Under the pieces are notes generated by a model. It ran no database searches. It was not told where the DNA came from and was given only the letters and a program-made list of their open reading frames with translations. A program made the translations under genes and the position numbers. Below, one piece after another: positions 15,631 through 43,865 of a DNA stretch of 64,000 nucleotides (within the stretch, counting starts at the first letter, position 1; each line of letters begins with the position of its first letter). Source of the stretch: Kutzneria sp. (GTDB lineage: Bacteria > Actinomycetota > Actinomycetes > Mycobacteriales > Pseudonocardiaceae); the NCBI GenBank assembly GCA_019239965.1, contig JAFAZC010000190.1, positions 1-64,000 of the forward strand, read 5' to 3'.

Positions 15631-15700
15631 TCGACTCGACCCGTGGAGACCACATGGCCACGACAGTGAATCGTGGGCCTTCGACCGGCCGGTGCGACCG

Positions 15701-18840: not shown

Positions 18841-18886
18841 ACCGCCTTCCAGAGCCAACAGACAACGTCGCGAAAGGAGACAACCG

Positions 18887-19099
18887 TTGCTCGACGAGAC
18901 CCCGTCCACCGCCGAGTTCGCGGTGGTGGTGAACGACGAGGACCAGTGGTCGATCTGGCCCGCGCACCGCACGGTGCCCGCGGGTTGGACGGCGGAGGGA
19001 ACCGTCGGTTCCCGCGGCGAGTGCATTGAACACATCGACGCTTCCTGGACCGACATCCGGTCGCGCAGCGTCCGCGACGCAGGCGGTGTGGACAGGTGA
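18887..19099 (+). CDS. MbtH-like NRPS accessory protein
   Basis: A 70-aa MbtH-family protein, a chaperone-like partner of adenylation domains. The diagnostic tryptophans and spacing are visible in QWSIWP, PAGW and IDASWTDIRS. The start is TTG 18887, 7 nt after GAAAGGAG (18872-18879); the longer frame upstream has no homology. The stop overlaps the start of the first NRPS gene (GTGA at 19096), so the two are translationally coupled. It probably serves that A domain and perhaps others, including the split one. Confidence 0.93.
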   Translation: MLDETPSTAEFAVVVNDEDQWSIWPAHRTVPAGWTAEGTVGSRGECIEHIDASWTDIRSRSVRDAGGVDR

Positions 19100-29171: not shown

Positions 29172-30292
29172 TCTCCACCGGCACGGCCACGGACTACACG
29201 ATCCAGCCCGCCGCCACCCGGCTCGACCCCGCCGCCAGGGCCGAGCGCTGCCGGGACGCGACGTTCGGCCGCGTGTTCACCGAGCACATGGTGACGTTGC
29301 GCTGGGACAAGGACTCCGGCTGGCATGACGGCCGCGTCCAGCCGCTCGCCCCGCTGTTGCTGGACCCGGCGACGGTCGGCCTGCACTACGGCCAGATCGT
29401 GTTCGAGGGACTCAAGGCCTACCGGCTGGCCGACGGCGGCATCGGGGTGTTCCGGCCGGACCGCTACGCCGAACGGTTCCAGCGCTCGGCGGCCCGGCTG
29501 ATGATGCCGGAGCTGCCGGTCGGCGAATTCCTCCGTGCCATCGAGCAGCTGCTCCGCCTCGACGCTGACTGGGTGCCATGGGAGGCCGACCGCAGTCTCT
29601 ACCTGCGCCCGCTGCTGTTCGCCGCCGACGCCGACCTCGCACTGGGCCCGGCGCGCGGCTACACGTTCCTGCTGATGGCGTTCGTGACGGAGATGTTCTT
29701 CGGCGCCAAGAGGGCGATCGACGTTTGGCTGTGCGAGGACTACGTGCGCGCCGTGCCCGGCGGCGTCGGGGCCGCCAAGTACGCCGGCAACTACGCGGCG
29801 GCCTACGCCGCGCAGGCGCAGGCCGCCGAGCACGGCTGTGACCAGGTCGTCTGGCTCGACGCCCGCGAACGCCGCTGGGTGGAGGAGCTCGGCGGGATGA
29901 ACCTGCTGTTCGTCGAGGGGCGGGCCGGCCAGCTGGTCACCCCGCCGCTGGCCGGCACGATTTTGCCCGGCGTGACCAGGCAGTCCATCCTCGAGCTGGC
30001 CCCGAGTGTCGGGCTGACCCCGGTCGAGCGGCCGATCTCCGTGGACGAATGGGCGCAGGGGTGCCGGACCGGCCGGATCACCGAGGTGTTCGCGTGCGGC
30101 ACAGCCGCCCAGATCACGTCCGTGGGGCGCGTCCGCGGCCGTGGCGGCGAGTGGCGGGTCGGTGACGGCCGCCCAGGGCCTGTCGCCGAACGGCTTGGCG
30201 CGCTGCTCACCGGGATCCACCGTGGCACCGAGCCGGCACCCGGCGACTGGATCTACCGACTCGGCGACGCCGGCGACGCACAGGAGGTGTGA
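29168..30292 (+). CDS. branched-chain amino acid aminotransferase-type enzyme
   Basis: A 374-aa class IV PLP aminotransferase of the IlvE/BCAT type. The PLP lysine is K204 in AAKYAGNYAA, and the typical VFEGLKAYR, ELGGMNLLFV and FACGTAAQI segments are present. It interconverts branched or aromatic alpha-keto acids with amino acids, using glutamate. It probably serves the cluster, not primary metabolism, because it is coupled to NRPS genes at both sides (ATGA at 29168; 4-nt gap to the carrier gene). It pairs logically with the MppJ-like methyltransferase: methylation of a keto acid, then amination to a beta-methylated amino acid. The exact substrate is not known. Confidence 0.9.
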   Translation: MISTGTATDYTIQPAATRLDPAARAERCRDATFGRVFTEHMVTLRWDKDSGWHDGRVQPLAPLLLDPATVGLHYGQIVFEGLKAYRLADGGIGVFRPDRYAERFQRSAARLMMPELPVGEFLRAIEQLLRLDADWVPWEADRSLYLRPLLFAADADLALGPARGYTFLLMAFVTEMFFGAKRAIDVWLCEDYVRAVPGGVGAAKYAGNYAAAYAAQAQAAEHGCDQVVWLDARERRWVEELGGMNLLFVEGRAGQLVTPPLAGTILPGVTRQSILELAPSVGLTPVERPISVDEWAQGCRTGRITEVFACGTAAQITSVGRVRGRGGEWRVGDGRPGPVAERLGALLTGIHRGTEPAPGDWIYRLGDAGDAQEV

Positions 30293-30296
30293 GGCG

Positions 30297-30548
30297 ATGA
30301 CTGAGACGGGAACCAACAGCGGCGCCGACGTCGGCGAGACTGTGACGCTGATCTGGCGGGAGGTCCTCGCGGTCCCCGTCGACGAGAACTCGGACTTCTT
30401 TGAGTCAGGCGGGCACAGCGTTGCCGTGCTGCAGATTATCAACCGCATCCAGGAGTGCTACGGCACCGAACTGTCGGTGCGCGACGTCTTCGAGAACTCG
30501 GTGCTCGGCGACTTCATCGGCGTCGTGCGGACTCGGGTGAACGGGTGA
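30297..30548 (+). CDS. free-standing peptidyl carrier protein
   Basis: An 83-aa acyl/peptidyl carrier protein with the phosphopantetheine site FFESGGHSVAV. Helix II (SVAVLQIINRIQE) and the rest of the fold are typical. ATG 30297 lies 4 bp after the aminotransferase stop with GAGG just upstream, and the stop overlaps the ATP-grasp start. A discrete carrier beside an ATP-grasp ligase and a half A domain suggests that one building block is tethered or modified on this protein before entry to the line. Confidence 0.93.
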   Translation: MTETGTNSGADVGETVTLIWREVLAVPVDENSDFFESGGHSVAVLQIINRIQECYGTELSVRDVFENSVLGDFIGVVRTRVNG

Positions 30549-31843
30549 GCGACATGCGCCCCCGCCTACTGCTGCTCTACGCCCCCGGCGCGCTCGGGCC
30601 GGTCGACCTGCTGCGTAGCCTGCGGTCCGTGGTGGACCTCGTTGTCGCGGTGCCCGAACGGTTCCGAGACGATCCCGGCGTGGCCATGCTGCGCCACTTC
30701 GTCGATCCGGTGATCTTCGACCCGCGGGGCGACGTGCCGGACGCCTCCGGCTGCGACGGCGTGATCTCCTACACCGATCTGCTGGCCCGCACCGCGGCTG
30801 AGATCGCGTGCCGGCACGGCCTTCCGGGCCAATCGCCCGAGGCGGCGCTCGCGTTGACCGACAAGGAGGTTCAGCGCCGGGTGCTCGCCGAGCACGGGGT
30901 CGATGCGCTGCGCGCGGCCACGCTGCACCGGCCGCGGGACTGGGAGCCCGCCGTGGCGCGGGTCGGCCTGCCCGCGGTGCTCAAACCGCGCAGCGGCGGG
31001 GGCAGTCGCAACACCTACCGGATCGACGACGCCGCCACCGGTGCCCGGCTGGTCCACCGGCTGCTCGGTCCCGCGGAGAACGCGATGGTGCTGGAGCAGC
31101 TGCTGGTCGGTGTGGACCAGGGGCGTCATGGTGACTACTGCTCGGTGGAGAGCGTCACCTCCGGCGGCATCACCACGCACCTACCGGTGCTGTCGAAGTT
31201 CCGGCTTGTCGAACCGTTCCGTGAGACCGGTCAGTTCTGGCCGAGCCACCTCGACGAGGCCACCCAGCAACGGGCCCGTGAGGTCACGACGGCCGCACTG
31301 CGCGCGATCGGATTCCGCGACGGCCTGTCCAGCACCGAGCTGAAGCTGACCCCGGACGGACCGCGAGTGATCGAGGTCAACAGCCGCCTCGGCGGGTTCG
31401 TCAACGAGATGTCCGTGCACTCCGGCGGGCCGGATCTGGTCGCCGCCGCCGCCCGCGTGGCGCTGGGCGAGCGGCCCGACATCGAGTTCGAGCACGGCGT
31501 ACGGCCGGTGTTCCAGTTCAACCATCTCGCGCCACAGGACGCGGTGGCGCTGCTGGGCGTCGAAGGGCTCGACGCGGTGCGGGCCCTCGACGGTGTCCTC
31601 GCGCACCGCCTGCTGATCGCGCCCGGCGCCGCCATGACACCCGGTGTGCAGACGCAGGAGCTGGACATGCTCAACGCCACCGCGGCCGACCACGACGAGA
31701 TGTACGCGCTGATCGAAGCGGTGTCGGCCCGGCTGACATTCGGGTTCCGCCTGCGCGACGCGGACGGGCCCGAGGTGTGGCTACCCGCCGCCGAGTTGCC
31801 GAGTGCGGCCTCGACCGCGGTCCCGGTGGGAGGATCCCCATGA
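30545..31843 (+). CDS. ATP-grasp ligase (carboxylate-amine ligase type)
   Basis: A 432-aa ATP-grasp protein. The nucleotide-binding lysine segment is LPAVLKPRSGGGS, and the metal-binding Glu/Asn are in STELKLTPDG and VIEVNSRLGG. The overall pattern is that of BacD-like L-amino acid ligases and related carboxylate-amine ligases, which activate a carboxylate as acyl-phosphate and join it to an amine. GTG 30545 overlaps the carrier-protein stop (ATG 30554 is the alternative). It could form an amide bond outside the NRPS line, for example a dipeptide or a side-chain amide. Acceptor and donor are unknown. Confidence 0.88.
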   Translation: MSDMRPRLLLLYAPGALGPVDLLRSLRSVVDLVVAVPERFRDDPGVAMLRHFVDPVIFDPRGDVPDASGCDGVISYTDLLARTAAEIACRHGLPGQSPEAALALTDKEVQRRVLAEHGVDALRAATLHRPRDWEPAVARVGLPAVLKPRSGGGSRNTYRIDDAATGARLVHRLLGPAENAMVLEQLLVGVDQGRHGDYCSVESVTSGGITTHLPVLSKFRLVEPFRETGQFWPSHLDEATQQRAREVTTAALRAIGFRDGLSSTELKLTPDGPRVIEVNSRLGGFVNEMSVHSGGPDLVAAAARVALGERPDIEFEHGVRPVFQFNHLAPQDAVALLGVEGLDAVRALDGVLAHRLLIAPGAAMTPGVQTQELDMLNATAADHDEMYALIEAVSARLTFGFRLRDADGPEVWLPAAELPSAASTAVPVGGSP

Positions 31844-32781
31844 CACTCGACACGGTGGCCGCCCGGTTCGCTCGGACTGCCCGGCTGCATCCGGACCACG
31901 AGGCACTGGTCAGCGCCGCCGGCCGGTGGAGCTACGGCGAGTTGAGCGCCGACGTCAACCGCGTTGCCCGATTCCTCGCCGGGCGTGGGGTCGGCCGGGA
32001 GGTCCACGTCGGCGTGCTGCTTCCGCGCGGCTATGAGCTGGTCGTGTCGATGATGGCCATCCTCACCGTCGGCGGCGTCTACGTCCCGCTCAACCCGTCC
32101 CTGCCGGACGCCCGGCTGCTCGACCTGGTCGATGTCACCCAGCCGCCGGTGATCCTCACCGACGCCGGCCGGTCGCTGCGCGGCGACGCCGCTGAGCACC
32201 GGGACATCGCAGCCGTGCTGCGCGACGGCGACCCGGCGCAAGTGGCCGACCGACACCATCCCCGTGCCGCCGCCTACGTCATCCAGACCTCCGGATCCAC
32301 CGGACGCCCGAAGTGTGTGCAGGTCGAGATGGGCTCGCTTGTCAACCTCCTGGACTGGTGCGCGGGCGCATGCGGGATCGAGCACGGCGAGCGAGTGCTG
32401 CAGGTGATCGCGTCCAGCTTCGACGCGTCCATCCGCAGCTACCTGACCCCGCTGGTCACCGGCGCCACGCTCGTCCTCTACGACGATGGCCCGTTCGACC
32501 CCGTCACACTCACGGACTGGCTCGGCAGGGAGCGGATCACCGTGTTCAACCCGTCGGTGCCCTCGATGTTCTACCCGGTCGTCGAGCTGGCGGCGGCAGA
32601 GGACTACCGCTGCCTGGAGTCGTTGCACACGCTCGCGCTCGGCGCGGAAACACCGGACATGGCCCTGCTGCGGCCCTGGCTCGACTCGCCACACTGCCGA
32701 GCCCGCGTGCAGAACGTCTACGGCCCGACCGAGGCCGCCGACATCTCCCTGTACGCCGAGCTGGACACGAGCCGCCGATGA
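31840..32781 (+). CDS. N-terminal half of a split NRPS adenylation domain (A1-A5)
   Basis: A 313-aa protein that is only the front part of an adenylation domain. It has A1 WSYGEL, A2 LTVGGVYVPLNP, A3 QTSGSTGRPKC, A4 SSFDASIRSY and A5 NVYGPTEA, and then stops 13 residues after A5. Motifs A6-A10 are missing, so it cannot be a working enzyme alone. They occur in the C-PCP-TE protein at 33479, whose A part begins at PIGRPIPNA, exactly where this one ends. All substrate-pocket positions except the A10 lysine are on this half and read D-A-R-N-A-G-V-D-I. A3 is atypical (QT for YT, PKC for PKG). Both gene ends are cleanly coupled to neighbours (ATGA overlaps), which argues against random decay. Function as one half of a two-chain A domain is inference. 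Confidence 0.9.
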   Translation: MTLDTVAARFARTARLHPDHEALVSAAGRWSYGELSADVNRVARFLAGRGVGREVHVGVLLPRGYELVVSMMAILTVGGVYVPLNPSLPDARLLDLVDVTQPPVILTDAGRSLRGDAAEHRDIAAVLRDGDPAQVADRHHPRAAAYVIQTSGSTGRPKCVQVEMGSLVNLLDWCAGACGIEHGERVLQVIASSFDASIRSYLTPLVTGATLVLYDDGPFDPVTLTDWLGRERITVFNPSVPSMFYPVVELAAAEDYRCLESLHTLALGAETPDMALLRPWLDSPHCRARVQNVYGPTEAADISLYAELDTSRR

Positions 32782-33482
32782 GCACGGCCTTGATCACTGT
32801 GCCGATGCGGTACACCGGGCCACCTGGGCAGGCGCACGGCGGCTACCTCGCGGGCCTGCTCGTGGACCACGTCGGCGATGCCACGGTGACGCTGCTCGAA
32901 CCGGTACCCACCGGAGTACCGCTCACGCTGGAGCGCGACCCACGCCGCGACCGCCTCTATGCCAACGGTGAGCTGGTCGCGACGGCGACCCATCGTGTGC
33001 CCCCGATGGTCCGCGTGCCACCGGTCGGTGCGCAGGAGGCTATGGCCGCGCAGGAGCGGTTTGCTGGATGTGCCGCGCATCCGTTCCCGAGCTGTTTCGT
33101 CTGCGGCACCGACGAGAAACGTCCGCTCTCGCTGGACATCGCACCCGGTCCGGTGGGCGGTCTCGTGGCCTGCACCTGGACCCCGGACCCGGTCTTGGCC
33201 TCGGAGGACGGCGTAGTGCCACCGGCGATCGTCCGCGCGGTGCTGGACTGTCCGGGCGGCTGGACACTCGACCCGGTCGCCGAGCCGATGGTGCTCTCGA
33301 CGTTCGCCGCCAAGGTGGCCATGGTCCGCGCCGGCGAGCGCCACGTCGTGGTGGCCGTCGCCGAGAGGCGCCATGGCCGGATGGCAGTCGTGCACACGAC
33401 CATGTACGGCTCGGACGGGCGTTGGACCGGCGGCGCGCGTGCCACCTGGCTCGCCGTCGACGCGGGCGGCCGCGGTGAGTGA
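32778..33482 (+). CDS. hotdog-fold thioesterase-like protein
   Basis: A 234-aa protein resembling actinobacterial tandem hotdog proteins. The hallmark is FPSCFVCG followed about 45 residues later by PAIVRAVLDCPGGW. The N-terminal part (PGQAHGGYLAGLLVDHV) and the C-terminal part look like two hotdog halves. The fold includes acyl-CoA thioesterases and dehydratases; here no catalytic assignment is possible. It lies between the two halves of the split adenylation domain, with 4-bp overlaps to both (ATGA at 32778; GTGA at 33479). It could hydrolyse a carrier- or CoA-bound intermediate. Confidence 0.7.
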   Translation: MSTALITVPMRYTGPPGQAHGGYLAGLLVDHVGDATVTLLEPVPTGVPLTLERDPRRDRLYANGELVATATHRVPPMVRVPPVGAQEAMAAQERFAGCAAHPFPSCFVCGTDEKRPLSLDIAPGPVGGLVACTWTPDPVLASEDGVVPPAIVRAVLDCPGGWTLDPVAEPMVLSTFAAKVAMVRAGERHVVVAVAERRHGRMAVVHTTMYGSDGRWTGGARATWLAVDAGGRGE

Positions 33483-36400
33483 GGAGTGAGGCGTCGGTGA
33501 GCACATCGAAGATCGAGGACGTCCTCCCGCTGACACCGTTGCAGCAGGGCATGCTGTTTCACTCCGAGCTCAGCCAGGGCGAGGAGGACGTCTACACCGT
33601 GCAGCTCGAGGTGGTGCTGGACGGCCCGCTGCGCGCTGAGGATCTGTGGGCGGCTGCGGCCGCGCTGCTGGAGCGCCACACCACGCTGCGCGTCGCGTTC
33701 CGCCGCCGCCGCAACGGCGACCCGGTGCAGGTCGTGATGAGTGAGGTGCGCTTGCCCCGCCGCGAGGTCGACCTGTCCGACCGGCCGGGGGACGCGGCGG
33801 AGGTGGCCGCCGCCGACCGCGCGGAACCGTTCGACCTCACGCGACCTCCGGCGCTCCGGCTCACCCTGCTGCGCCTGGGCCAGGAACGGCACACGCTGCT
33901 CGTGACGAGCCACCACATCCTGCTCGACGGCTGGTCGATGCCGCTGCTCGTGCGGGAGCTGACCGCACTGCACGCGGTGTACGCCGACGGCGGAGCGCCC
34001 TCGGCCGCGGACGCCGTGCGCCGCGCCGGGCTGCCCCCGGTCACACCGTACCGGGACTACCTGCGCTGGCTCGGGTCGCTCGACGATGATGCCGCGGCCA
34101 CCCTGTGGACCGAGGAGCTGGCCGGGCTCGACGAGCCGACATACCTGGTCCCGATCGAGCACGGGCAGCCGCGACCTGTGCACCTGCGCACCACGCTGCC
34201 GTTCGGCGCCCGCCTGAAAGCCACCGCCCGCGAGCACGGCCTCACCGTCAACACCGTGCTCCAGGTGGCGTGGGCGGTCGTGCTCGGCCGCCTCACCCGC
34301 CGTGACGACGTGGCGTTCGGCGCCACCGTGTCCGTGCGTCCGCCGGAGCTGGCCGGGGCCGACCGGATGCTGGGACTGTTCATCAACACCCTGCCGGTAC
34401 GGGTACGGCTGCGCGAGGACGCGTCATTGCTGGACACCGCCATCGCTTTGCAGCGACGGTGGGTAGTGTTGCGTGAGCACGGCCACTTCGGCCTGTCCGA
34501 GCTGCGGCGGGTCACCGGCGTTGGCGAGGTGTTCGACACGCTGGTGGTGTTCCAGAACTTCCCGACCGCGGGCGACGGTGACCAGTCGACCGGGGACGTG
34601 AAGGTCATCGACGTCACCGGTCACGACGCGACGCACTACCCGGTCAGCCTTGTCGTCGACGCGTCCGACGAGATCACACTGCAGCTCACCCGGCGGGACG
34701 GAGCCATCGTCCCTGGCGGACCGGACGAGCTGCTGGCCAGGGTGAGCCGGGTGCTGGAGGCGTTCGCCGACGATCCGCGCCGCACGCTGGGCGGTCTTGA
34801 CCTGCTCTCGCCCGCCGAGCGCGACCTGCTGCTCGGCGAGTGGATCCACACCGGCCTCGGCCGCTCCCCGGTCGCGCCCGGCAGCCTGCCACCGATCGGA
34901 CGCCCGATCCCGAACGCACGCGCCTACGTGCTCGGCCCAGGCCTGCACCTCATGCCGCCCGGCGTGACGGGGGAGGTCTACCTGGCCGGTGTCGGGATCG
35001 CCCGCGGCTACCTCGGCCAGCCCGCGCTGACCGCGGAGCGGTTCCTGCCCGACCCGTTCGGCGAGCCGGGCAGCCGCATGTACCGCACCGGCGACCTCGG
35101 GCGCTGGCGCGGGGACGGGCAGATCGAGTACCTGGGTCGGGTCGACCACCAGGTAAAGATCAACGGGTTCCGTGTCGAGCCCGCCGAAGTGGAGGCGCAG
35201 TTGATCGCCCGGGCCGACGTGCGCCGTGCTGTCGTCGTGGTGCGCGAGGACGTCCCTGGGGTGCGGAGCCTGGTCGCCTACGTCGTCGCCGCACCGGGAG
35301 CACGGGCGTCGACCGCGGACTTGCTTGCCGGCCTGCGCGAACGGCTGCCGAACTATCTGGTGCCGGATGCTGTCGTGTGGCTGGACACCATTCCGACCAA
35401 CGCCCATGACAAGGTGGACCGCGCGGCATTGCCGGCACCGGAACACCAGCGGCGGGCTCCGACGGCCGGGCCGCGCACCGACGCGGAACGGAGAGTTCTC
35501 GCGCTGGTGAGCGAGATTCTCGGCCGCGCCGACGTGGCAGTGGAGGACAACCTGTTCGCGCTGGGCTGCGACTCGCTCGCGGCGGCTCGGCTGGTCAGCC
35601 GCATTCGGACGGACACCGGCCACACAGTCGGGGTCCGCACGCTGTACGCCACCCCGACGGTGGCTGGGCTGGCGGCGGCGCTGGACGGCGCCGGCTCGGG
35701 CGCGCGGGCGCCCTCCGGGCTCGAGGTCCTCCTTCCGCTGGCCAGCGGGGGCGAGGGGCCGCCGGTGTTCTGCGTCCATCCCGGCAGCGGCCTGGGATGG
35801 GCCTACGCCGCGCTGACCCGCTGGGTGGACGACCGGCCCGTGTACGCGCTGCAGGCAAGGAGCCTGACCCAGCCGGACGAGGCGGCCACTTCGGTGGACG
35901 CGATGGCCGGCCACTACCTCGACGTGGTGCGCGAGATCCAGCCGGACGGCCCGTACCACCTGGTCGGATGGTCGTTCGGCGGAGTCGTGGCACACGCGAT
36001 GGCCGCCCGCCTCGCGACGGAGAACCGGTCGGTACGCCTGCTCGCGGTGCTCGACTCGTTCCCGATCCGGCGGTGGACGACGCTGAGCGACGACGACATC
36101 CGTCGCGGCGCGCTGGACGGACTCGGCCTGCCCGCGGACGCGGTGGCGGACGGTGACCTCACCGTCGAACTCGTGGTCGCGGCGGCACGCCGGATCGGGA
36201 ACGTCCTCGCCGACCTGGACCACGCAACCGTTTCCGCGCTGATCCGCACCGCCGTCCACCACGTGCACCTGATGGATGCCCATCGGGCGCCGCACGTCTC
36301 CGGTGATCTGCTGGCGTTCGAGGCCACCGTGCGGACCTCGCCGCTGCCGGACCTCTCGGCGGAGTGGGCGCCACTGGTCGGCGGCACGGTCGACGTGCGC

Positions 36401-36487
36401 CAGGTGGCCGTGCGGCACGAGGACATGCTTGGTCCGGAAGCGCTGGCGGTGATCGGTCCGGAGCTGCGGCGACGCCTGCGAGGCTGA
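33479..36487 (+). CDS. NRPS: C-(A6-A10 half of A)-PCP-TE, terminal module
   Basis: A 1002-aa terminal synthetase. The condensation domain (1-450) begins LPLTPLQQGMLFHSEL, has HHILLDG near 145 and resembles the type following an epimerase. Residues about 470-650 hold only the back of an A domain: GRPIPNARAYVL, A6 VYLAGVGIARGYL, A7 YRTGDL, A8 GRVDHQVKINGFRVEP, A9 LPNYLVP and A10 with the catalytic-type lysine in HDKVDR. The roughly 270 residues containing A1-A5 are absent and are encoded at 31840. The carrier has an unusual LGCDS (Ser about 699). The type I thioesterase has GWSFGG (Ser about 832) and RHEDM, and would release the peptide. GTG 33479 gives the same 4-bp overlap as its neighbours; GTG 33497 behind GAGGAG is the alternative. 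Confidence 0.93.
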   Translation: MRSEASVSTSKIEDVLPLTPLQQGMLFHSELSQGEEDVYTVQLEVVLDGPLRAEDLWAAAAALLERHTTLRVAFRRRRNGDPVQVVMSEVRLPRREVDLSDRPGDAAEVAAADRAEPFDLTRPPALRLTLLRLGQERHTLLVTSHHILLDGWSMPLLVRELTALHAVYADGGAPSAADAVRRAGLPPVTPYRDYLRWLGSLDDDAAATLWTEELAGLDEPTYLVPIEHGQPRPVHLRTTLPFGARLKATAREHGLTVNTVLQVAWAVVLGRLTRRDDVAFGATVSVRPPELAGADRMLGLFINTLPVRVRLREDASLLDTAIALQRRWVVLREHGHFGLSELRRVTGVGEVFDTLVVFQNFPTAGDGDQSTGDVKVIDVTGHDATHYPVSLVVDASDEITLQLTRRDGAIVPGGPDELLARVSRVLEAFADDPRRTLGGLDLLSPAERDLLLGEWIHTGLGRSPVAPGSLPPIGRPIPNARAYVLGPGLHLMPPGVTGEVYLAGVGIARGYLGQPALTAERFLPDPFGEPGSRMYRTGDLGRWRGDGQIEYLGRVDHQVKINGFRVEPAEVEAQLIARADVRRAVVVVREDVPGVRSLVAYVVAAPGARASTADLLAGLRERLPNYLVPDAVVWLDTIPTNAHDKVDRAALPAPEHQRRAPTAGPRTDAERRVLALVSEILGRADVAVEDNLFALGCDSLAAARLVSRIRTDTGHTVGVRTLYATPTVAGLAAALDGAGSGARAPSGLEVLLPLASGGEGPPVFCVHPGSGLGWAYAALTRWVDDRPVYALQARSLTQPDEAATSVDAMAGHYLDVVREIQPDGPYHLVGWSFGGVVAHAMAARLATENRSVRLLAVLDSFPIRRWTTLSDDDIRRGALDGLGLPADAVADGDLTVELVVAAARRIGNVLADLDHATVSALIRTAVHHVHLMDAHRAPHVSGDLLAFEATVRTSPLPDLSAEWAPLVGGTVDVRQVAVRHEDMLGPEALAVIGPELRRRLRG

Positions 36488-36520: not shown

Positions 36521-38938
36521 TCAGGCGTCTCGGAGGCGGGCACCGTGCCGGTCGCGGAGCACGGTGAGGATCGATTGCCGTGCTGTCGCGATCTGTTCCG
36601 GGGTCAGCGTGCTGGTGCTGGGCCGCAGGGTCACTCGCATGGTCACCGCGCGGTGGTCTTCCGGGACCCAGGAGCCGCGGAACTCGCCAACGAACGTAAT
36701 GCTGTGGACGGTTCCGTCGGCCGCGCTGGCTGTGGCGTCCAGGTCTTGCCAGGGCACGGTGTCGGCCACGACGACGGTGAGATCGAAGTCGGCGTCAGGG
36801 AAATCCGGGACGGGCCGATAGCGGTTGTCCCTGCTGGTATGGGCGATCAGCAGATCGACGTCGAGTTCGAAGCAGGCGACGTGGGCTTGGATGTCGGCAA
36901 CGCGACGCGGCCTGTTGGCCAGCAGGCCCAGGGTGCCGACGCGGCGGTCATGGGCGACGAGGTCGAGGCGGGCGGATCGGTCCGCCCACGCGGCGGACTC
37001 GGTTGTGGTTTCGAATCGCAGGTCGGTGAGGTGGGCATGCTCACGGAGCATGTCCATGACCCCCTTGGCTCGCCGGAACGCTTCCTCTCCGTCGCCGCCG
37101 ACGATGGCACCGGCCAGCAGCCTGTGGTGCGGGGGCAGCTCCTCGAACCGGCCGTGGTGTCGCACGGGTGGCCCGACTGTGAAGGCGTAGCCAAGCTCGA
37201 ACAGGGAGAACGACGGGTAGAACCGCAGGTTCGCGGCGACCGCCTCGATGAGGTTCGGGATCAAGGAGGGCCGCAACGAGTTGCGGTCGGGGGCGGGCGC
37301 GCCGTCGAACAGGATGGTTTTCGCCTTGCTGTAACCGGTCGCCGTCAACAGGTCATCGGCGACCCAGGGGTAGGTGACGATCTCCCGCATGGCAGCACGC
37401 GCGGCCAGCTGCTCCCGCAGGACACGGTCCAGGGGCCGGTGGTTCAGGCTGCGGACCGGCTCGGCGGTCAGGTGGAGCCTGGCCGCGGGGATGTGGTCGT
37501 ATCCATGGATCCGGGCCACTTCCTCGACGATGTCGTGGGGAAGCGAAATGTCCCCTGTGGACCGCCATGCTGGTGCTGTGACGCGTAGGATGTCGCCGGC
37601 GAGGTCGACAGTGAACCCGAGCGATTCCAGAGTGGAACGCGTTTCGGCTATCTCAAGCCGCTGTCCGATGCGTGCGGCGAGGAACGCGTTGTCGACGTCG
37701 ATTGTTACCGGGACGGTCGACTCGACGCGTAGGTCCTGGCTTCCGGCGACCGCCGCGGTGGGCGCGATCTCGCGCAGCAGGCTGAGGAACATGCCCGCGG
37801 CCTGGTCGACTCGGTCGGTGTCCAGCCCCTTCTCGAACCTGGCCGACGCCTCGGTCCGCAGGCCGAGTTGCTGTGTCGTCCGACGGACCGGCTGCGGGCG
37901 GAAGGACGCCGTCTCCAGCACGAACCTCGTGCTAGAGGCCGTGACGCTGCTGTGGGCGCCGCCGATGACGCCCGCCACAGCCACCGGGCCGGCGCCGTCG
38001 GCGATCACCGGCGTCCGGGTGTCGAGTTCCACACTGGTCCCGCCGATGATGTCGACCTTGACGGCGGTGTCGGCGCGGGCCACCGTCAAGGGAAGAGAGA
38101 GCCTGTCCGCGTCGTAGACGTGGTTGGGCTGACCGACGGCGAACATCACATAGTTGCTGAGGTCTACACACAGGTTGCGGCTGTTCTCGCCGATGCGGGC
38201 AAGGCGGCTGCGCAGCCACAGGGGGGCCTCGCCGGGCTGGTCGAGGCTGAACGACAAGGCCGTGAAGCGCTGGCACACATCGGGGTCCACCGCACCGATG
38301 AGACCGTCCACGGTGTCCGACCACTCGGCGGTGTCCAGCGCCTTGAGGGGAAGGCCGTAGATGGCGGCGAGTTCCCTCGCGATGCCGTAGTGGCCCCACA
38401 GATCCGGGCGGTTGGTCAGGGACTTGTTGTCGATGTCCAGGACGAAGTCGTCCCAGCCCAGCGCCTCCGCCACCGGTTGCCCCGGCTTCGCGGACGCCGG
38501 ATCCAGATGGAGCACCTGGTCGCGTGTGTCCGGACACATCGCCTGGAGGCCGAGGTCCCTGGGGCTGCAGATCACGCCCTCGCTGGGGATGCCCAGCACC
38601 GTGGCGACGTTGACCTCACGGGCCACCCCACCCTCCGAGGGGGCAAGCCTCGCTCCTGGCTCGGCTACCGCCACCACCTGACCGACCCGCAGTCCAGAGG
38701 CGCGACTGGCCAGCGTGACGAGCGCGGGACGGCCGACGTCACACGCGACCCGAACCCCGTCCTTGACCGGCTCCACCTCCGCGATGCGCGCCACCACGAC
38801 GTTGGCGAGCGCGATGGAGGTGTCGACCCACTCCTCGACCTCCACGGTCTTGAGCGTCAACTCGTGCGCCAGGCTCTTGACGTCGATGTCGGAAGGCAGG
38901 TCCACATAGTCGCGGACCCATTCAAGGGAAACCTTCAC
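36521..38938 (-). CDS. pheT: phenylalanyl-tRNA synthetase beta chain, divergent type
   Basis: An 805-aa PheRS beta subunit: B1 region, B3/B4 editing domain (SLTNRPDLWGHYGIARELAA), B5 (WRSTGDISLPHDIVEEVARIHGY), catalytic-like B6/B7 (RPSLIPNLIEAVAANLRF) and the C-terminal anticodon-binding domain. It begins MKVSLEWVRDYVDLPS, unlike the MRVPVSWL-type N-terminus usual for actinobacterial PheT, so it looks like a second, foreign-type copy. It follows pheS by 9 bp and is convergent with the NRPS terminal gene, stopping 33 bp from it. Role: Phe-tRNA synthesis with a possibly drug-insensitive enzyme, as self-resistance or as a dedicated supplier of Phe-tRNA. Whether a housekeeping pair exists elsewhere cannot be seen. 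Confidence 0.9.
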   Translation of the reverse strand: MKVSLEWVRDYVDLPSDIDVKSLAHELTLKTVEVEEWVDTSIALANVVVARIAEVEPVKDGVRVACDVGRPALVTLASRASGLRVGQVVAVAEPGARLAPSEGGVAREVNVATVLGIPSEGVICSPRDLGLQAMCPDTRDQVLHLDPASAKPGQPVAEALGWDDFVLDIDNKSLTNRPDLWGHYGIARELAAIYGLPLKALDTAEWSDTVDGLIGAVDPDVCQRFTALSFSLDQPGEAPLWLRSRLARIGENSRNLCVDLSNYVMFAVGQPNHVYDADRLSLPLTVARADTAVKVDIIGGTSVELDTRTPVIADGAGPVAVAGVIGGAHSSVTASSTRFVLETASFRPQPVRRTTQQLGLRTEASARFEKGLDTDRVDQAAGMFLSLLREIAPTAAVAGSQDLRVESTVPVTIDVDNAFLAARIGQRLEIAETRSTLESLGFTVDLAGDILRVTAPAWRSTGDISLPHDIVEEVARIHGYDHIPAARLHLTAEPVRSLNHRPLDRVLREQLAARAAMREIVTYPWVADDLLTATGYSKAKTILFDGAPAPDRNSLRPSLIPNLIEAVAANLRFYPSFSLFELGYAFTVGPPVRHHGRFEELPPHHRLLAGAIVGGDGEEAFRRAKGVMDMLREHAHLTDLRFETTTESAAWADRSARLDLVAHDRRVGTLGLLANRPRRVADIQAHVACFELDVDLLIAHTSRDNRYRPVPDFPDADFDLTVVVADTVPWQDLDATASAADGTVHSITFVGEFRGSWVPEDHRAVTMRVTLRPSTSTLTPEQIATARQSILTVLRDRHGARLRDA

Positions 38939-38947
38939 CGCGGGCTC

Positions 38948-40048
38948 CTAGCTGAATTGGCCAAGGAAACGAAGGTCGGCGGAGTGCATGAGGCGGACGT
39001 CGTCAATGCCGTATCGCATCATGGCCAGCCGGTCGAGCCCGACGTTGACGTAGAAGCCGGTCCACTCGTCCGGGTCCAGGCCGCCCGCGTGAAGGACATT
39101 CGGGTGCGGGCTGCCGCCGGGCATGATCTCCAGCCATCCAACACCGTGACATGTTCGGCACCCCTGCCCGCCACACACCTGGCACTGCATGTCGATCTCG
39201 AACCCGGGCTCGACGAACGGGAAGAACCCAGTCCGCATGCGGGTTGGCACGTGTTTGCCGAAGACGGTGTCGAGAATGGTGCTGACCAGGAACTTTCCCA
39301 GGGTCAGCGGGACGTGCCTGTCGACGATGAGGACCTCGTACTGGAAGAAGGCGCGCTCGTGGCGGGCGTCGGTGCTCTCGTTGCGGTACACCCGACCCGG
39401 GTAGACGAATCGAAACGGAGGCTGGTTCTCCAGCATGAAACGGACGCTCGCACCGGTCAGGTGGGGCCGCAGGCACAGGCGTTCCGCGCCGGATTTTGCG
39501 TGGCTGGACGTCAACCAGTAGGTGTCCATGCTCTCGCGGGCAGGGTGTTCTGGTGGGAAGTTTAGGTTGTCGAATTCGAAGAGCTCCGAAGAGATCTCCG
39601 GTCCTTCGTAGATCTGGAAGTTCAACGCGGCGAAAGCGTCGTTCAGGTCGTACATGAGTTGTACCGTCGGATGCAGACCCCCAGTGGGGACTGGGATGCC
39701 CGGCAGTGTGACGTCCAGTGGGCGGGCCAGTACCGGCTCTGAGTCCAGCAGCTCCCGCTCTCGGCGGGTGAGGGCCTGTTCGACGTCGCGCTGTGCCGCC
39801 GCCACGGCCGCGCCGACCTGCTTGCGTTGCTCTCCGGGCAGCGACCCGATGGCGCGACGGACCTGGAGGAGCGTGCCCGATCGGCCGAGGACCTCCCGGC
39901 GCGCCGCGTCGAGCTCGTCCATGGTCCGCGCCGCAGCACAGGCCGCCAGGGACCGCTCACGGATCGACGCTATGTGTTCAAGCAGCTCAGCGCCCTCGTC
40001 CGTGCTGCCCATCTGTCCCCACATCTCTCTCGCGTGTCTGGTGTCCAT
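38948..40048 (-). CDS. pheS: phenylalanyl-tRNA synthetase alpha chain, divergent type
   Basis: A 366-aa PheRS alpha subunit. It has the coiled-coil N-terminus, motif 2 region (FVYPGRVYRNESTDARHERAFFQYE), the zinc-type cysteine cluster CQVCGGQGCRTCHGVGW and the C-terminal NVGLDRLAMMRYGIDDVRL. The ending resembles the ERIAMLKYGI form of non-actinobacterial PheS, not the ERTLMFRHG-like form of most actinobacteria. In the motif 3 area the usual GMG is VNVG, and the segment before it reads LEIMPGGSPHPNV where most have a GCGMV/GAGMV pattern. These lie around the Phe pocket and fit an altered inhibitor response. It is divergent from the ribonucleotide reductase operon. ATG 40048 is used; ATG 40012 is possible. 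Confidence 0.9.
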   Translation of the reverse strand: MDTRHAREMWGQMGSTDEGAELLEHIASIRERSLAACAAARTMDELDAARREVLGRSGTLLQVRRAIGSLPGEQRKQVGAAVAAAQRDVEQALTRRERELLDSEPVLARPLDVTLPGIPVPTGGLHPTVQLMYDLNDAFAALNFQIYEGPEISSELFEFDNLNFPPEHPARESMDTYWLTSSHAKSGAERLCLRPHLTGASVRFMLENQPPFRFVYPGRVYRNESTDARHERAFFQYEVLIVDRHVPLTLGKFLVSTILDTVFGKHVPTRMRTGFFPFVEPGFEIDMQCQVCGGQGCRTCHGVGWLEIMPGGSPHPNVLHAGGLDPDEWTGFYVNVGLDRLAMMRYGIDDVRLMHSADLRFLGQFS

Positions 40049-40155: not shown

Positions 40156-40202
40156 CCACAACATGTGGGTACAAATTCGCTTCGAGTGTCCATGTATTGT
40201 GT
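40156..40202 (+). promoter_or_regulatory. tandem NrdR-box-like operators
   Basis: Two sites resemble the NrdR consensus acaCwAtATaTwGtgt: CCACAACATGTGGGTA at 40156-40171 and TGTCCATGTATTGTGT at 40187-40202. The second matches 11 of the last 13 consensus positions. Their start-to-start distance is 31 bp, three helical turns, as is typical of paired NrdR boxes. They precede the cobalamin riboswitch of the nrdAB operon. Control of RNR genes by the ATP-cone repressor NrdR is established in Streptomyces. Confidence 0.65.
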
Positions 40203-40204
40203 CC

Positions 40205-40390
40205 TGGTAGCTGGTTCGGCCGGTCATCCAGATCGGTCGTCGCAAGAGGGAACCCGGTGTGAGCCCGGGACTGCCCCGCAGCGGTGAACGGGAACGAAAG
40301 CCATCACCAAGCACTGGACCGCGAGGTCTGGGAAGCGATGGCCGGTAGGAGCCGACAGGCGTGCCCGTGAGTCCGAAGACCTGCCAGCGC
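40205..40390 (+). promoter_or_regulatory. cobalamin (B12) riboswitch
   Basis: The leader of the RNR operon contains the conserved cobalamin aptamer parts in order: AAGAGGGAACCCGGTG (P3 region, 40246-40261), GAGCCCGGGACTGCCCCGC, the B12-box-like GGGAAGCGATGGCC, and GTCCGAAGACCTGCC (40371-40385). When adenosylcobalamin is present, such switches shut off the class Ia RNR so that the B12-dependent class II enzyme is used, as shown for nrdABS of Streptomyces coelicolor. Exact ends are approximate. Confidence 0.92.
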
Positions 40391-40412
40391 CCCGCACGCG
40401 CCCGCGTGCGGG
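40391..40412 (+). terminator. hairpin of the riboswitch expression platform
   Basis: A near-perfect stem CCCGCACGCG (40391-40400) / CGCGTGCGGG (40403-40412) directly follows the aptamer. It lacks a U-tract, as is common in high-GC actinobacteria. It is about 100 nt before the nrdA start, so a role in transcription termination, not direct blocking of the ribosome site, is favoured. Confidence 0.6.
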
Positions 40413-40512
40413 TGTCCGCGGCCCCGAGGGAGGGCGAGAGGACAGGGCGGTCGTGCGTGCCCGTCGCTCCTCGCTGCTCTCCATGGCCACCGAGCTCGCG
40501 AGGAGAGAGCCT

Positions 40513-42840
40513 GTGACGGTCGTCGACACGGCGACAACCACCATGTGCGTGCGCAAGCGAAACGGCGCACTTGAACCCGTCGACGTCAACAAGATCGTGC
40601 GCGCGGTGCAGCGCTGCACCGTCGGACTGAGCGGTGTCGACCCGCTGCGGGTCGCGACCAAGACGATCAGCGGTCTGTACGACGGCGCGACCACCGAGGA
40701 ACTGGACCGGCTGTCCATCCAGACGGCGGCCGCACTGGTCGCCGAGGAGCCCGAGTACTCGAAGCTCGCGGCAGGCCTGCTGGCCGCGTACATCGAGAAA
40801 GAGGTGCGCCGCCAGGGCGTGCAGTCGTTCAGCCAGAGCATCGCGCTCGGACACGCCGAGGGCCTGATCGGCGGGGAGACCGCGACGTTCGTGGCGGCCA
40901 ACGCACGCAAGCTGGACGACGCGATCGACATCGACGCCGACCGGCGGTTCGAATACTTCGGCCTGCGCACCGTCTACGACCGCTACCTGCTGCGTCACCC
41001 CGCGAAGCGGCTGGTCATCGAGATGCCGCAGTACTGGCTGCTGCGTGTGGCGTGCGGCCTGTCGCGCACCGCGGCCGAGGCGATCGACTTCTACCGGCTG
41101 ATGTCGTCGCTGGCCTACCTGCCCAGCTCGCCGACGTTGTTCAACTCCGGCACCAAGCACACCCAGATGTCGTCGTGCTACCTACTGGACTCGCCGCGCG
41201 ACGAGCTGGAGTCGATCTACGAGCGGTACGCGCAGATCGCACGGCTGTCGAAGTTCGCGGGCGGCATCGGCGTGCAGTGGTCGCGTGTGCGGTCGCGCGG
41301 CGCGCTGATCCGTGGAACGAACGGGCATTCCAACGGCATCGTGCCGTGGCTGCGCACGCTGGACGCGTCGGTGTCGGCGGTGAACCAGGGCGGCCGCCGC
41401 AAGGGTGCGGCCTGCGTGTACCTGGAGACGTGGCATCCGGACATCGACGAGTTCCTCGAGCTGCGCGACAACACCGGTGAGGACGCCCGGCGCACGCACA
41501 ACCTCAACCTGGCGAACTGGATCCCGGACGAGTTCATGCGCCGCGTCGAGGCGGACGCGGACTGGTCGCTGTTCGACCCGGACGAGGTTCCCGAGCTGGT
41601 CGACCTCTGGGGCGACGAGTTCGATCGCGCCTACCGCGCCGCGGAGGAAGCGGGTCGTGCGGTGCGTACGGTGCAGGCCCGTGACCTTTACGGACGGATG
41701 ATCCGCACGCTGGCGCAGACCGGCAACGGCTGGATGACGTTCAAGGACACCGCGAACCGCACCTGCAACCAGACAGCCGAGCCGGGCAACGTGGTGCACC
41801 TATCCAACCTGTGCACCGAGATCCTCGAGGTCACCAGCGATGAGGAGACCGCGGTGTGCAACCTCGGTTCGGTCAACCTCGGCGCGCACGTCGAAGGCGA
41901 CGGCATCGACTGGGAGCGGCTGCGCAGGACGGTCCGCACCGCGGTGGTTTTCCTCGACCGGGTGATCGACATCAACTACTACCCGACAGAGCAGGCGGCG
42001 CGCAGCAACCCGCGCTGGCGTCCAGTCGGACTCGGTGTCATGGGCCTGCAGGACGTGTTCTTCACACTGCGCCTGCCGTTCGACTCGCCGCGGGCGCGCG
42101 AGCTGTCGACCCGGATCGCCGAGGAGGTCTACCTCACGGCACTGGAGTCGTCGGCCGAACTGGCGGCGTCCGCGGGCGCGCACCCGGCGTACGCGCGGAC
42201 CCGCGCCGCACGCGGTGAGCTACAGCCGGACCTGTGGGGTGTCACGCCGACGCAGACGTCGCGGTGGGCCGCCGTCCGCGAACAGATCGCCGAGCACGGC
42301 CTGCGCAACTCGCTGCTGATCGCCGTCGCCCCGACGGCCACGATCGCGTCGATCGCGGGCTGCTTCGAGTGCATCGAGCCACAGGTGTCCAACACCTTCA
42401 AGCGTGAGACGCTGTCCGGCGAGTTCCTGCAGATCAACTCCTACCTTGTACGTGAACTCAGGTCGCGTGGCCTGTGGACCGAGGAGATCCGCGCGCGGCT
42501 CAAGCGGGACGACGGTTCCGCGCAGGGCATCACTGAGCTGCCCGAGGACGTGCGTTCGTTGTTCCGCACAGCGTGGGAGCTGCCGCAGAAGGCGTTGATC
42601 GAACTGGCCGCGGCCCGCGGTCCGTACGTCGACCAGAGCCAGTCGCTGAACCTGTTCGTCGCGTCGCCGACGATCGGCAAGCTCTCCTCGATGTACCTCT
42701 ACGCCTGGAAAGCGGGGCTGAAGACCACCTACTACCTGCGCTCACGCCCGGCGACGCGCATCCAGCAGGCCACGGTTCCCACGGTGGACGCCGTCGCCTG
42801 CTCCCTGGAAAACCCCGAGTCCTGTGAGGCCTGCCAGTGA
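40513..42840 (+). CDS. nrdA: class I ribonucleotide reductase, large subunit
   Basis: A 775-aa catalytic subunit reducing ribonucleotides to deoxyribonucleotides. The ATP-cone is at the N-terminus (VRKRNGALEPVDVNKIVRAVQRC). The active-site region includes the cysteine in HLSNLCTEI, with NLGSVNL following. MSSCYLLD near the front and the C-terminal redox tail CSLENPESCEACQ are also present. GTG 40513 is the best start, 7 nt after AGGAG (40501-40505); GTG 40453 and ATG 40483 are upstream options without a better site. It overlaps nrdB by 4 bp and is controlled by the B12 riboswitch and NrdR-like boxes upstream. Confidence 0.94.
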   Translation: MTVVDTATTTMCVRKRNGALEPVDVNKIVRAVQRCTVGLSGVDPLRVATKTISGLYDGATTEELDRLSIQTAAALVAEEPEYSKLAAGLLAAYIEKEVRRQGVQSFSQSIALGHAEGLIGGETATFVAANARKLDDAIDIDADRRFEYFGLRTVYDRYLLRHPAKRLVIEMPQYWLLRVACGLSRTAAEAIDFYRLMSSLAYLPSSPTLFNSGTKHTQMSSCYLLDSPRDELESIYERYAQIARLSKFAGGIGVQWSRVRSRGALIRGTNGHSNGIVPWLRTLDASVSAVNQGGRRKGAACVYLETWHPDIDEFLELRDNTGEDARRTHNLNLANWIPDEFMRRVEADADWSLFDPDEVPELVDLWGDEFDRAYRAAEEAGRAVRTVQARDLYGRMIRTLAQTGNGWMTFKDTANRTCNQTAEPGNVVHLSNLCTEILEVTSDEETAVCNLGSVNLGAHVEGDGIDWERLRRTVRTAVVFLDRVIDINYYPTEQAARSNPRWRPVGLGVMGLQDVFFTLRLPFDSPRARELSTRIAEEVYLTALESSAELAASAGAHPAYARTRAARGELQPDLWGVTPTQTSRWAAVREQIAEHGLRNSLLIAVAPTATIASIAGCFECIEPQVSNTFKRETLSGEFLQINSYLVRELRSRGLWTEEIRARLKRDDGSAQGITELPEDVRSLFRTAWELPQKALIELAAARGPYVDQSQSLNLFVASPTIGKLSSMYLYAWKAGLKTTYYLRSRPATRIQQATVPTVDAVACSLENPESCEACQ

Positions 42841-43865
42841 CCACGCTCGAGAACACCGCCCGCAAGCACGCACTGCTCGACCCCGGCATGGACCTCACCC
42901 TGCGGCCCATGCGCTATCCGCTGTTCTATGAGCGCTTCCGCGACGCGATCAAGAACACGTGGACCGTCGAGGAGGTCGACCTGCACTCCGACCTCGCCGA
43001 CCTGTCAAAGCTGTCCGCGGCCGAGCGGCATCTGGTCAACCGGCTCGTCGCGTTCTTCGCGACCGGTGACACCATCGTCGCGAACAACCTCGTGCTCAAC
43101 CTCTACGAGCACGTGAACGCGCCGGAGGCCCGGCTCTACCTGTCTCGGCAGCTGTTCGAGGAGGCCGTGCACGTCCAGTTCTACCTGACGCTGCTCGACA
43201 CCTATCTGCCCGACGAGAATGAGCGAGCCGAGGCGTTCGCCGCCGTCGAGAACATCCCGTCCATTCGGGACAAAGCCGAGTTCTGCTACAAGTGGATCGA
43301 CTCGATCTCCCGGCTGGACCGTCTGGAGACGCGGGAGGACCGACGGTCGTTCCTGCTCAACCTGATCTGCTTCGCCGCGTGTATCGAGGGCCTGTTCTTC
43401 TACGGTGCCTTCGCCTACGTGTACTTCCTGCGGTCGCGCGGACTGCTCAACGGCCTCGCGTCCGGCACGAACTGGGTGTTCCGCGACGAGTCGATGCACA
43501 TGGCGTTCGCGTTCGACGTCGTGGACACGGTGCGCCGCGAGGAGCCGGACCTGTTCGACGACGAGCTGCGCGAGCAGGTGCGGCTGATGCTGCGCGAGGC
43601 CGTGGACGTGGAGACGCGGTTCGCAGAGGACCTGCTGGGGCAGGGTGTCGCGGGCATGTCCGTGGCGGCGATGCGGTCCTATGTGGAGCATGTGGCGGAC
43701 CGGCGGCTCCAGGTGCTGGGCATCGAGCCGATCTACGGTTCGAAGAACCCGTTCGCGTTCATGGAGTTGCAGGACGTGCAGGAGCTGTCGAACTTCTTCG
43801 AACGCCGGGTGTCGGCCTACCAGGTCGCGGTGAGCGGCACGGTCTCCTTCGACGAGGACTTCTAG
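42837..43865 (+). CDS. nrdB: class I ribonucleotide reductase, small subunit
   Basis: A 342-aa radical-generating diiron subunit. Metal-ligand helices are visible: ATGDTIVANN region, QLFEEAVHVQFY, CIEGLFFYGAF and FRDESMHMAFAFDV. The C-terminal peptide SGTVSFDEDF is the typical tail that docks to NrdA. GTG 42837 overlaps the nrdA stop. In Streptomyces the operon continues with nrdS (an AraC-like gene); no such gene follows here, and a strong hairpin begins 15 bp after the stop. Confidence 0.94.
   Translation: MTTLENTARKHALLDPGMDLTLRPMRYPLFYERFRDAIKNTWTVEEVDLHSDLADLSKLSAAERHLVNRLVAFFATGDTIVANNLVLNLYEHVNAPEARLYLSRQLFEEAVHVQFYLTLLDTYLPDENERAEAFAAVENIPSIRDKAEFCYKWIDSISRLDRLETREDRRSFLLNLICFAACIEGLFFYGAFAYVYFLRSRGLLNGLASGTNWVFRDESMHMAFAFDVVDTVRREEPDLFDDELREQVRLMLREAVDVETRFAEDLLGQGVAGMSVAAMRSYVEHVADRRLQVLGIEPIYGSKNPFAFMELQDVQELSNFFERRVSAYQVAVSGTVSFDEDF

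Follow-up and report, generated by a model that had tools for sequence, protein, structure and literature searches.

Why would an NRPS gene cluster border on a second PheRS? The window analysed here, a 64,000-nt stretch of Kutzneria DNA, carries a complete PheS–PheT pair on the reverse strand at 36521–40048, convergent with the last NRPS gene of a cluster and separated from it by 33 bp (Table 1). An earlier note on this DNA had described the pair as convergent with that gene and as unlike ordinary actinobacterial PheRS, a description with which coordinates, motifs and identities agree, and had proposed that it provides either self-resistance or Phe-tRNA for consumption by the pathway.

A complete second PheRS of a separate lineage

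The two genes, spaced by 9 nt, both have strong codon bias. Pfam searches, with which NCBIfam agrees, found the catalytic and N-terminal domains (PF01409 and PF02912) in PheS2 and the B3_4, CLM, B5 and FDX-ACB domains in PheT2; PF01588 was not detected by Pfam in PheT2. The N terminus of PheT2 reads MKVSLEWVRDY, and the protein scores 464.5 bits against TIGR00472 (NCBIfam cut-off 402.65). PheS2 scores 215.7 bits against the NCBIfam pheS equivalog TIGR00468, under its cut-off of 237.45; it has GFYVNVGLDRLAMMRYGIDDVRL at the site of GFAFGMGxER in standard PheS and ends at the C terminus with LMHSADLRFLGQFS. Its predicted model matches 1B7Y with a Z of 19.7 and an rmsd of 3.3 over 220 residues. 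PheS2 is a divergent subtype, but its fold, its partner gene and the occurrence of its type as a sole copy still identify it as PheRS. Loss of the PheT B2 domain was considered as a sign of cluster specialization and rejected, because acidobacterial sole copies are also without B2.

A standard pheST is encoded elsewhere in this genome, where it lies behind a TrmH-type methyltransferase gene on contig C66. In six genus mates, the standard PheS is the only one. PheS2 shares 35–41% identity with the standard PheS of its own genome and order and 45% at most with standard PheS elsewhere in the phylum; identity rises to 70–77% with a handful of second copies that occur sporadically among actinobacteria and is 53–65% with clostridial, synergistacean and acidobacterial PheS. 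In maximum-likelihood trees all actinobacterial copies of this 'FYVN type' form one clade (support 100/100 with 5 rows and 100/99 with 11 rows), which groups with Acidobacteria and gammaproteobacterial MAGs, apart from standard actinobacterial PheS. The distribution of actinobacterial PheRS2 is patchy, and the presence of a standard PheRS alongside it was examined in four genomes. Judged by sequence and tree position, the extra pair is a horizontally acquired, separate PheRS lineage. The earlier note's 'foreign, extra PheRS' is thus borne out by the second pheST, the tree and the absence from genus mates: the pair is neither the sole PheRS of its genome nor grouped with those of close relatives. 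A plasmid search found no close relative, and the supposed phage PheS of MT836033 (54%) is not from a phage, as the record has nrdR- and alanine-racemase-like bacterial genes and groups with Clostridia.

Table 1 Features of the window around and beside the pheS2–pheT2 pair
Position	Strand	Feature	Remark
10340..11146	-	leucyl/phenylalanyl-tRNA transferase homologue (Aat-like)	candidate Phe-tRNA consumer
11217..12440	-	MFS transporter	
13015..14478	+	diaminobutyrate--2-oxoglutarate transaminase-family enzyme	
14608..15630	+	C-methyltransferase near PDB 8ftr	
15572..16966	+	cytochrome P450	
16911..17894	+	AurF-like N-oxygenase	
17848..18840	+	ornithine-carbamoyltransferase-like enzyme	under every equivalog cut-off
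18827..19099	+	MbtH-like protein	
19096..21405	+	NRPS A-T	A code DAVLLGGSY, by motif reading
20622..22130	+	thioesterase	domain in C-terminal half of ORF; true start later
22127..26722	+	NRPS C-A-T and second condensation-type domain read as epimerase	A code DVWHVSLVD
26575..28401	+	NRPS C-T	
28398..29171	+	type II thioesterase	
29168..30292	+	class IV aminotransferase (branched-chain, IlvE_II type)	
30455..31843	+	ATP-grasp ligase	
31777..32781	+	NRPS adenylation domain, N-terminal part	C-terminal part in 33479 ORF
32779..33482	+	small protein between two A-domain parts	no Pfam match
33479..36487	+	NRPS C-(A C-terminal part)-T-TE	convergent with pheT2, 33 nt gap
36521..38938	-	pheT2, PheRS beta subunit	805 aa, GTG start; full-length, B2 (tRNA_bind) region degenerate
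38948..40048	-	pheS2, PheRS alpha subunit	366 aa, FYVN-type active site
40195..40402	+	cobalamin riboswitch	upstream of nrdAB; outside system
40453..43865	+	nrdAB-type ribonucleotide reductase genes	86-90% identity in genus mates; outside system

Within the cluster, the code of the A domain encoded at 22127..26722 points, by motif reading, to Ser, and a further A domain appears to be split over the ORFs 31777..32781 and 33479..36487. The entry 8ftr, near which the C-methyltransferase falls, is probably SgvM, judging from the three-residue variant 8ftv and PMC10502145; assignment of that gene as a tryptophan C3-methyltransferase is unsupported, because the structure paper checked bears another PDB code. 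On the far side of the pair, nrdAB was considered as a second resistance gene and rejected, as its riboswitch and its conservation in genus mates mark an ordinary operon.

A rebuilt pocket at inhibitor-contact positions

In the alignment, PheS2 preserves the equivalents of Tth H178, Q218, E220, F258, F260 and R204, among them the alpha-amino and ring-stacking residues. Thirty-three positions separate the FYVN lineage from standard PheS, many of them in the pocket, and about 12 positions of the Phe/adenylate pocket are unlike the standard enzyme. The replacements include S177T, Q180S, G282P, V286P, A305Y, F306V and G307N in M. tuberculosis numbering, and G218 is replaced by A in the FYVN lineage and by V in every examined actinobacterial copy. 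The pocket loops change from GCGMV to PGGSP, from FAFGMG to FYVNVG and from TS..Q to LT..S. Contact or pocket positions of two known PheRS inhibitors comprise S177, Q180, G218, G282, V286, F306 and G307 (PMC7948948), and alignment against these contacts finds PheS2 altered at positions that the inhibitors touch; several of the contacts are main-chain atoms, where a side-chain swap is no proof of lost binding.

Could such a pocket instead charge tRNA with a non-protein amino acid from the cluster? Tth A314, which lies against the Phe ring, is Tyr in PheS2 and G316 is Asn, and these residues would reshape the side-chain pocket. The identical motif, however, occurs in the sole PheRS of many genomes, which must make Phe-tRNA, and, of the pocket sites that were examined, only V239 is confined to the actinobacterial clade. 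We therefore demoted a new amino-acid specificity, which we consider highly improbable. Because many Clostridia have the same motif in their only PheRS, FYVNVG, as a sequence feature, is not in itself a sign of altered specificity. Moreover, an FYVN-type PheS is the sole convincing PheS in the tested clostridial, synergistacean, acidobacterial and proteobacterial genomes, which suggests that this type of PheRS makes Phe-tRNA.

We propose that the complete second PheRS was gained horizontally from a lineage that had rebuilt its amino-acid and adenylate pocket. PheRS2 would most likely attach Phe to tRNA-Phe, the reaction that this enzyme type performs as the sole PheRS of many anaerobes, and would thereby sustain translation in the presence of a pocket-directed inhibitor of the standard PheRS. 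By analogy and from the replaced residues, we give about even chances that PheRS2 is an inhibitor-tolerant second PheRS comparable to IleRS2.

Neighbourhoods and competing explanations

Linkage to natural-product genes was found in the window, Kibdelosporangium, Pilimelia and Catenulispora, with differing clusters, and in none of G1265, G1097 and five genomes of genus g4. The Kibdelosporangium PheRS2 adjoins a different NRPS(-PKS) cluster, and those of Pilimelia and Catenulispora lie inside or adjoin RiPP-like gene sets. A ferritin-like fold for the Pilimelia/Catenulispora protein was dropped, the model being too weak (pLDDT 59) and giving no significant Foldseek match. Other members of the clade adjoin hopanoid genes, at a position conserved genus-wide, and further members adjoin nitrate-assimilation genes or, in central metabolism, aldehyde/3-hydroxyacyl-CoA dehydrogenase genes. 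This family-wide search led us to reject strict linkage of PheRS2 to clusters.

The self-resistance proposed by the earlier note keeps its plausibility from the replaced inhibitor-contact positions and from the three relatives in or beside natural-product sets, and loses some of it to the copies in metabolic surroundings. That PheRS2 confers self-resistance specifically to the adjacent NRPS product is possible but doubtful. The wider proposal, which we hold even more tentatively, is that the cluster makes a PheRS-inhibiting peptide antibiotic with PheRS2 as the immunity enzyme, and that the actinobacterial PheRS2 lineage marks PheRS-inhibitor clusters, including the Kibdelosporangium NRPS-PKS and the Pilimelia and Catenulispora RiPP-like sets. 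The literature searched held no case of a PheRS as resistance marker or cluster enzyme. Alternatively, PheRS2 may be an accidental neighbour, that is, a mobile accessory synthetase (a spare, stress or growth-phase copy, or a defence against the inhibitors of others) unrelated to the cluster. The clade members beside hopanoid, nitrate-assimilation and dehydrogenase genes fit this explanation, as does the place of PheRS2 outside the NRPS operon, convergent with it and adjoining an ordinary nrdAB operon. An NRPS gene only 33 nt away, a second NRPS cluster beside the Kibdelosporangium copy and the same linked genes in Pilimelia and Catenulispora, despite their different families, argue against chance, and we rate it as unlikely. 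Because some clade members lie away from natural-product genes, PheRS2 could also be a second copy with a housekeeping, stress or developmental function.

The earlier note's alternative, consumption of Phe-tRNA, gains a candidate consumer that the note had missed, the Aat-like gene at the cluster edge opposite PheRS2. PheRS2 would then charge tRNA-Phe as a dedicated supply for the transferase, which would attach Phe (or Leu) to the peptide made by the cluster. The gene is the sole copy in the genome and of a kind rare in the family (2/100 genomes, the other copy adjoining thioester-reductase-like and GNAT-like genes), and its product matches the E. coli enzyme across the central FxxES and DxQ...AS.GA.EI stretches. 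Against such a supply, the protein scores 131 against the NCBIfam aat equivalog, under the cut-off of 143.55, and its gene lies about 28 kb off, beyond an MFS gene; Phe-tRNA is already made by the housekeeping PheRS; and the rebuilt pocket, older than the cluster, is left unexplained. Co-occurrence also fails elsewhere, as PF03588 is absent from the PheRS2-bearing genomes of Pilimelia, Catenulispora and Kibdelosporangium (3/3 tested). We regard this explanation as improbable.

Significance and comparison with known synthetases

If PheRS2 is inhibitor-tolerant, it hints at undiscovered natural inhibitors of PheRS and gives three candidate gene clusters. PheRS2 also shows that rebuilding the pocket of a bacterial PheRS at the contact positions of present inhibitors need not cost the core catalytic residues, which bears on possible natural resistance to PheRS drugs.

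PheRS2 shares its domain order in PheS and PheT, catalytic fold and core catalytic residues with the standard bacterial (alpha-beta)2 PheRS, and differs from it in the pocket loops, the degenerate B2 region and a PheS under the NCBIfam pheS cut-off. For the supply of Phe-tRNA, the dedicated SerRS of valanimycin biosynthesis (VlmL) offers a parallel, and Aat and biosynthetic enzymes that use aminoacyl-tRNA (PMC12945691) are comparable to the Aat-like protein encoded at the opposite cluster edge, which could use Phe-tRNA; that homologue, however, is under the aat cut-off and unlinked to PheRS2 in the three other genomes tested. ObaO, a ThrRS (obafluorin), and SbzA, which is IleRS-like (SB-203208), resemble PheRS2 in being extra synthetases, encoded beside a peptide-type cluster by genomes that also have a standard enzyme, but the PheRS2 clade, unlike these self-resistance enzymes, is also found away from such clusters. 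In the IleRS1/IleRS2 pair, sensitive and tolerant isozymes coexist and the signature motif is changed (PMC10485003). PheRS2 is like the mupirocin-tolerant IleRS2 in being a patchily distributed second synthetase of separate lineage, coexisting with a normal one and with an altered catalytic signature motif; IleRS is a class I enzyme, whereas PheRS2 is a two-subunit class II enzyme whose tolerance is predicted from sequence.

A second PheRS gene pair beside the NRPS cluster

The window carries a complete PheRS gene pair of the FYVN type, pheS2 and pheT2 (pheST2), on one strand with 9 nt between the genes. As the earlier note stated, the pair is convergent with the last NRPS gene; that gene lies on the opposite strand, with 33 nt between its end and the stop of PheT. 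PheT scores above the NCBIfam bacterial cut-off, and a domain search detected no tRNA_bind (B2) domain in it. PheS scores 215.7, below the NCBIfam pheS cut-off of 237.45, and is therefore a divergent subtype.

A Pfam search with PF01409 matched three places in this Kutzneria sp. genome: the window on contig C99 and two other contigs, C66 and C147. The second, standard pheST that the earlier note proposed to look for lies on C66, where a pheS with the motif GFAFGMGIER is followed by pheT and preceded by a TrmH-type gene. Six genus mates have a single PheS each, of the standard type, so the window pair is neither the genome's only PheRS nor one shared with these relatives. The assembly measures 4.7 Mb (208 contigs, 93.8% complete), against 10–12 Mb in the genus mates. 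The C147 protein is a separate matter: a single-chain PheS-like protein of the NCBIfam family 'PheS-related mystery ligase SrmL' (L003:1390-2565; L186:7694-8869), with a PheS core and a weak FDX-ACB match, encoded downstream of a P450 gene.

The enzyme set of the cluster points to a small peptide that contains a beta-methyl branched amino acid and possibly diaminobutyrate or ureido groups. Its C-methyltransferase is very close to PDB 8ftr, probably the alpha-ketoleucine methyltransferase SgvM. Of the A-domain codes, read by motif position without a reference alignment, a single one could be assigned, as Ser-like. No clear Phe mimic was seen. One adenylation domain looks split, its C-terminal part following a C domain and a small gene with no Pfam hit lying between the parts. 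Past pheS2, a cobalamin riboswitch precedes nrdAB. The nrdAB genes are conserved in genus mates (86–90% identity). In five of these, the 20 kb before nrdA contain neither NRPS nor pheST2 genes, which places the right boundary of the special region near 40048.

Features of the pheST2 region and the adjoining cluster
Feature	Position	Strand	Remarks
Cluster	10340-36487		
Aat-like transferase	10340-11146	minus	leucyl/phenylalanyl-tRNA transferase homologue
Other cluster genes			MFS transporter, diaminobutyrate-type aminotransferase, P450, AurF-like N-oxygenase, ornithine-carbamoyltransferase-like enzyme, MbtH, NRPS modules, thioesterases, branched-chain aminotransferase, ATP-grasp ligase
Split A domain	31777-36487		N-terminal part 31777-32781; C-terminal part in 33479-36487
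Last NRPS gene	33479-36487	plus	
PheT	36521-38938	minus	complete; B3/4, B5, CLM, FDX-ACB domains
PheS	38948-40048	minus	complete; N-terminal and catalytic domains
Cobalamin riboswitch	40195-40402		

Relatives and active site of the FYVN-type PheS

Among 298 genomes of the order, 394 of the class and 396 of the phylum, no PheS exceeded about 45% identity to that of the window. A 54% match with the same unusual motifs came from a human-gut contig with bacterial genes aboard, filed as 'Bacteriophage sp.' (MT836033.1, L037); it carries NrdR-, alanine-racemase- and PheST-like genes and groups with Clostridia. Using both PheS sequences as queries, we scanned 84,980 genomes and retained 80 of 425 relatives. 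The top four of these 80 were all actinobacterial: Pilimelia terevasa (76%), a MAG (73%), Catenulispora rubra (73%) and Kibdelosporangium philippinense (70%). The remainder (53–65%) came from Clostridia and other Bacillota, Synergistaceae, Acidobacteria and some proteobacterial MAGs. This FYVN type, whose pocket has Tyr and Asn where the standard enzyme has Ala and Gly, is the sole convincing PheRS of many Clostridia, Synergistaceae and Acidobacteria (L071-L146). In the non-actinobacterial genomes tested, no other PheS matched convincingly, the remaining matches being short and weak; many of these genomes are MAGs, in which a second copy may have been missed in single cases. Pilimelia, Catenulispora and Kibdelosporangium all have a standard PheS as well.

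In a tree of 105 PheS, the window and the four actinobacterial copies form a clade (100/100), which lies within a larger group shared with Acidobacteria and gammaproteobacterial MAGs (99/99). Standard actinobacterial PheS stand apart (100/100), bearing out the earlier view that this is no ordinary actinobacterial PheRS. A family-wide search of 390 genomes added G1265 (77%), G1097 (72%), G1264 (partial) and five species of one genus, g4 (63–65%); with six of these included, the 11 actinobacterial FYVN-type copies in the tree all fell in one clade (100/99).

At thirty-three positions the FYVN-type lineage has an invariant residue that is replaced in at least 90% of the standard-type sequences used for comparison. 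Aligned to Thermus thermophilus PheS, the window protein retains the residues for the Phe amino group and ring (H196, Q236, E238, F276, F278 and R222) and replaces S180, Q183, A314 and G316 with T198, S201, Y333 and N335. Its GCGMV loop has replacements at P310-G311 and P314, and V239, present in all 11 actinobacterial copies examined, is Ala in the lineage and Gly in standard PheS. By motif arithmetic on PMC7948948, the changed sites correspond to S177, Q180, G282, V286, A305, G307 and G218 of the M. tuberculosis enzyme. There, S177, G282, G307, G218 and F306 contact GDI05-001 or PF-3845, Q180 lines the pocket, and a larger residue at the V286 site makes the human pocket narrower (PMC7948948). 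Because several of these contacts are main-chain (PMC7948948), the replacements argue for altered inhibitor binding by PheRS2, short of proof. An AlphaFold model of the window PheS (pLDDT 79) matched T. thermophilus PheRS 1B7Y with Z 19.7 and rmsd 3.3 over 220 residues.

Genomic settings and proposed role

The neighbourhoods of related pheST2 pairs are varied. In Kibdelosporangium the neighbours are a formyltransferase, an AT-IV (40% to that of the window), a thioesterase, an NRPS-PKS with one Phe-like A code, an SHMT-family gene and an MFS gene. Pilimelia and Catenulispora have a common set (L067:3716-8366; L069:4691-9148), co-directional with pheST2 in Pilimelia, that is RiPP-like by gene anatomy alone: a conserved helical protein of 224–244 aa (68% identical, C-terminal AMSWSWPA, repeated in Pilimelia), two PhyH oxygenases, a GT9-like protein and DUF4254. 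The G1265 pair adjoins nitrate/nitrite reductase genes; it sits as if inserted between a duplication (L215:14669-20665), flanked by two similar TPR-like regulator copies, an HTH protein and its C-terminal fragment. The G1097 pair adjoins aldehyde and 3-hydroxyacyl-CoA dehydrogenase genes. In all five g4 species, pheST2 lies directly behind hopanoid genes (squalene-hopene cyclase, LytB/PNP and DUF3463 radical-SAM; L219:13359-L220:1951, matching places in L221-L227), and the g4 PheT, about 594 aa, has no B2 and retains only a small part of the B3/4 editing domain.

Given its sole-copy occurrence elsewhere, kept catalytic residues, changed contact positions and patchy spread, PheRS2 is most likely a complete PheRS that was acquired horizontally, has a rebuilt pocket and serves as a backup: were the standard enzyme inhibited, PheRS2 would go on making Phe-tRNA. 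Self-resistance to the cluster's product, as the earlier note predicted, would be a natural special case of this, and adjacency together with two further cluster-linked contexts speaks for it; the G1265, G1097 and g4 copies, beside other genes, count against a strict linkage of pheST2 to such clusters. The note's other suggestion, that PheRS2 supplies Phe-tRNA, here to the Aat-like gene at the far edge of the cluster, is a fair rival in the Kutzneria sp. genome only: Aat-type genes are rare in the family (2 of 100 genomes), and none occurs in the three further genomes with PheRS2 that were examined for it. The other family Aat-like gene (L191) lies beside thioester-reductase-like and GNAT-like genes.

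In the literature searched, in which subscription journals were thinly covered, we found no earlier report of a PheRS in a role of this kind. The documented parallel to a standard PheRS accompanied by PheRS2 is that of the isoleucyl-tRNA synthetases, the sensitive IleRS1 and the mupirocin-tolerant IleRS2 (PMC10485003).
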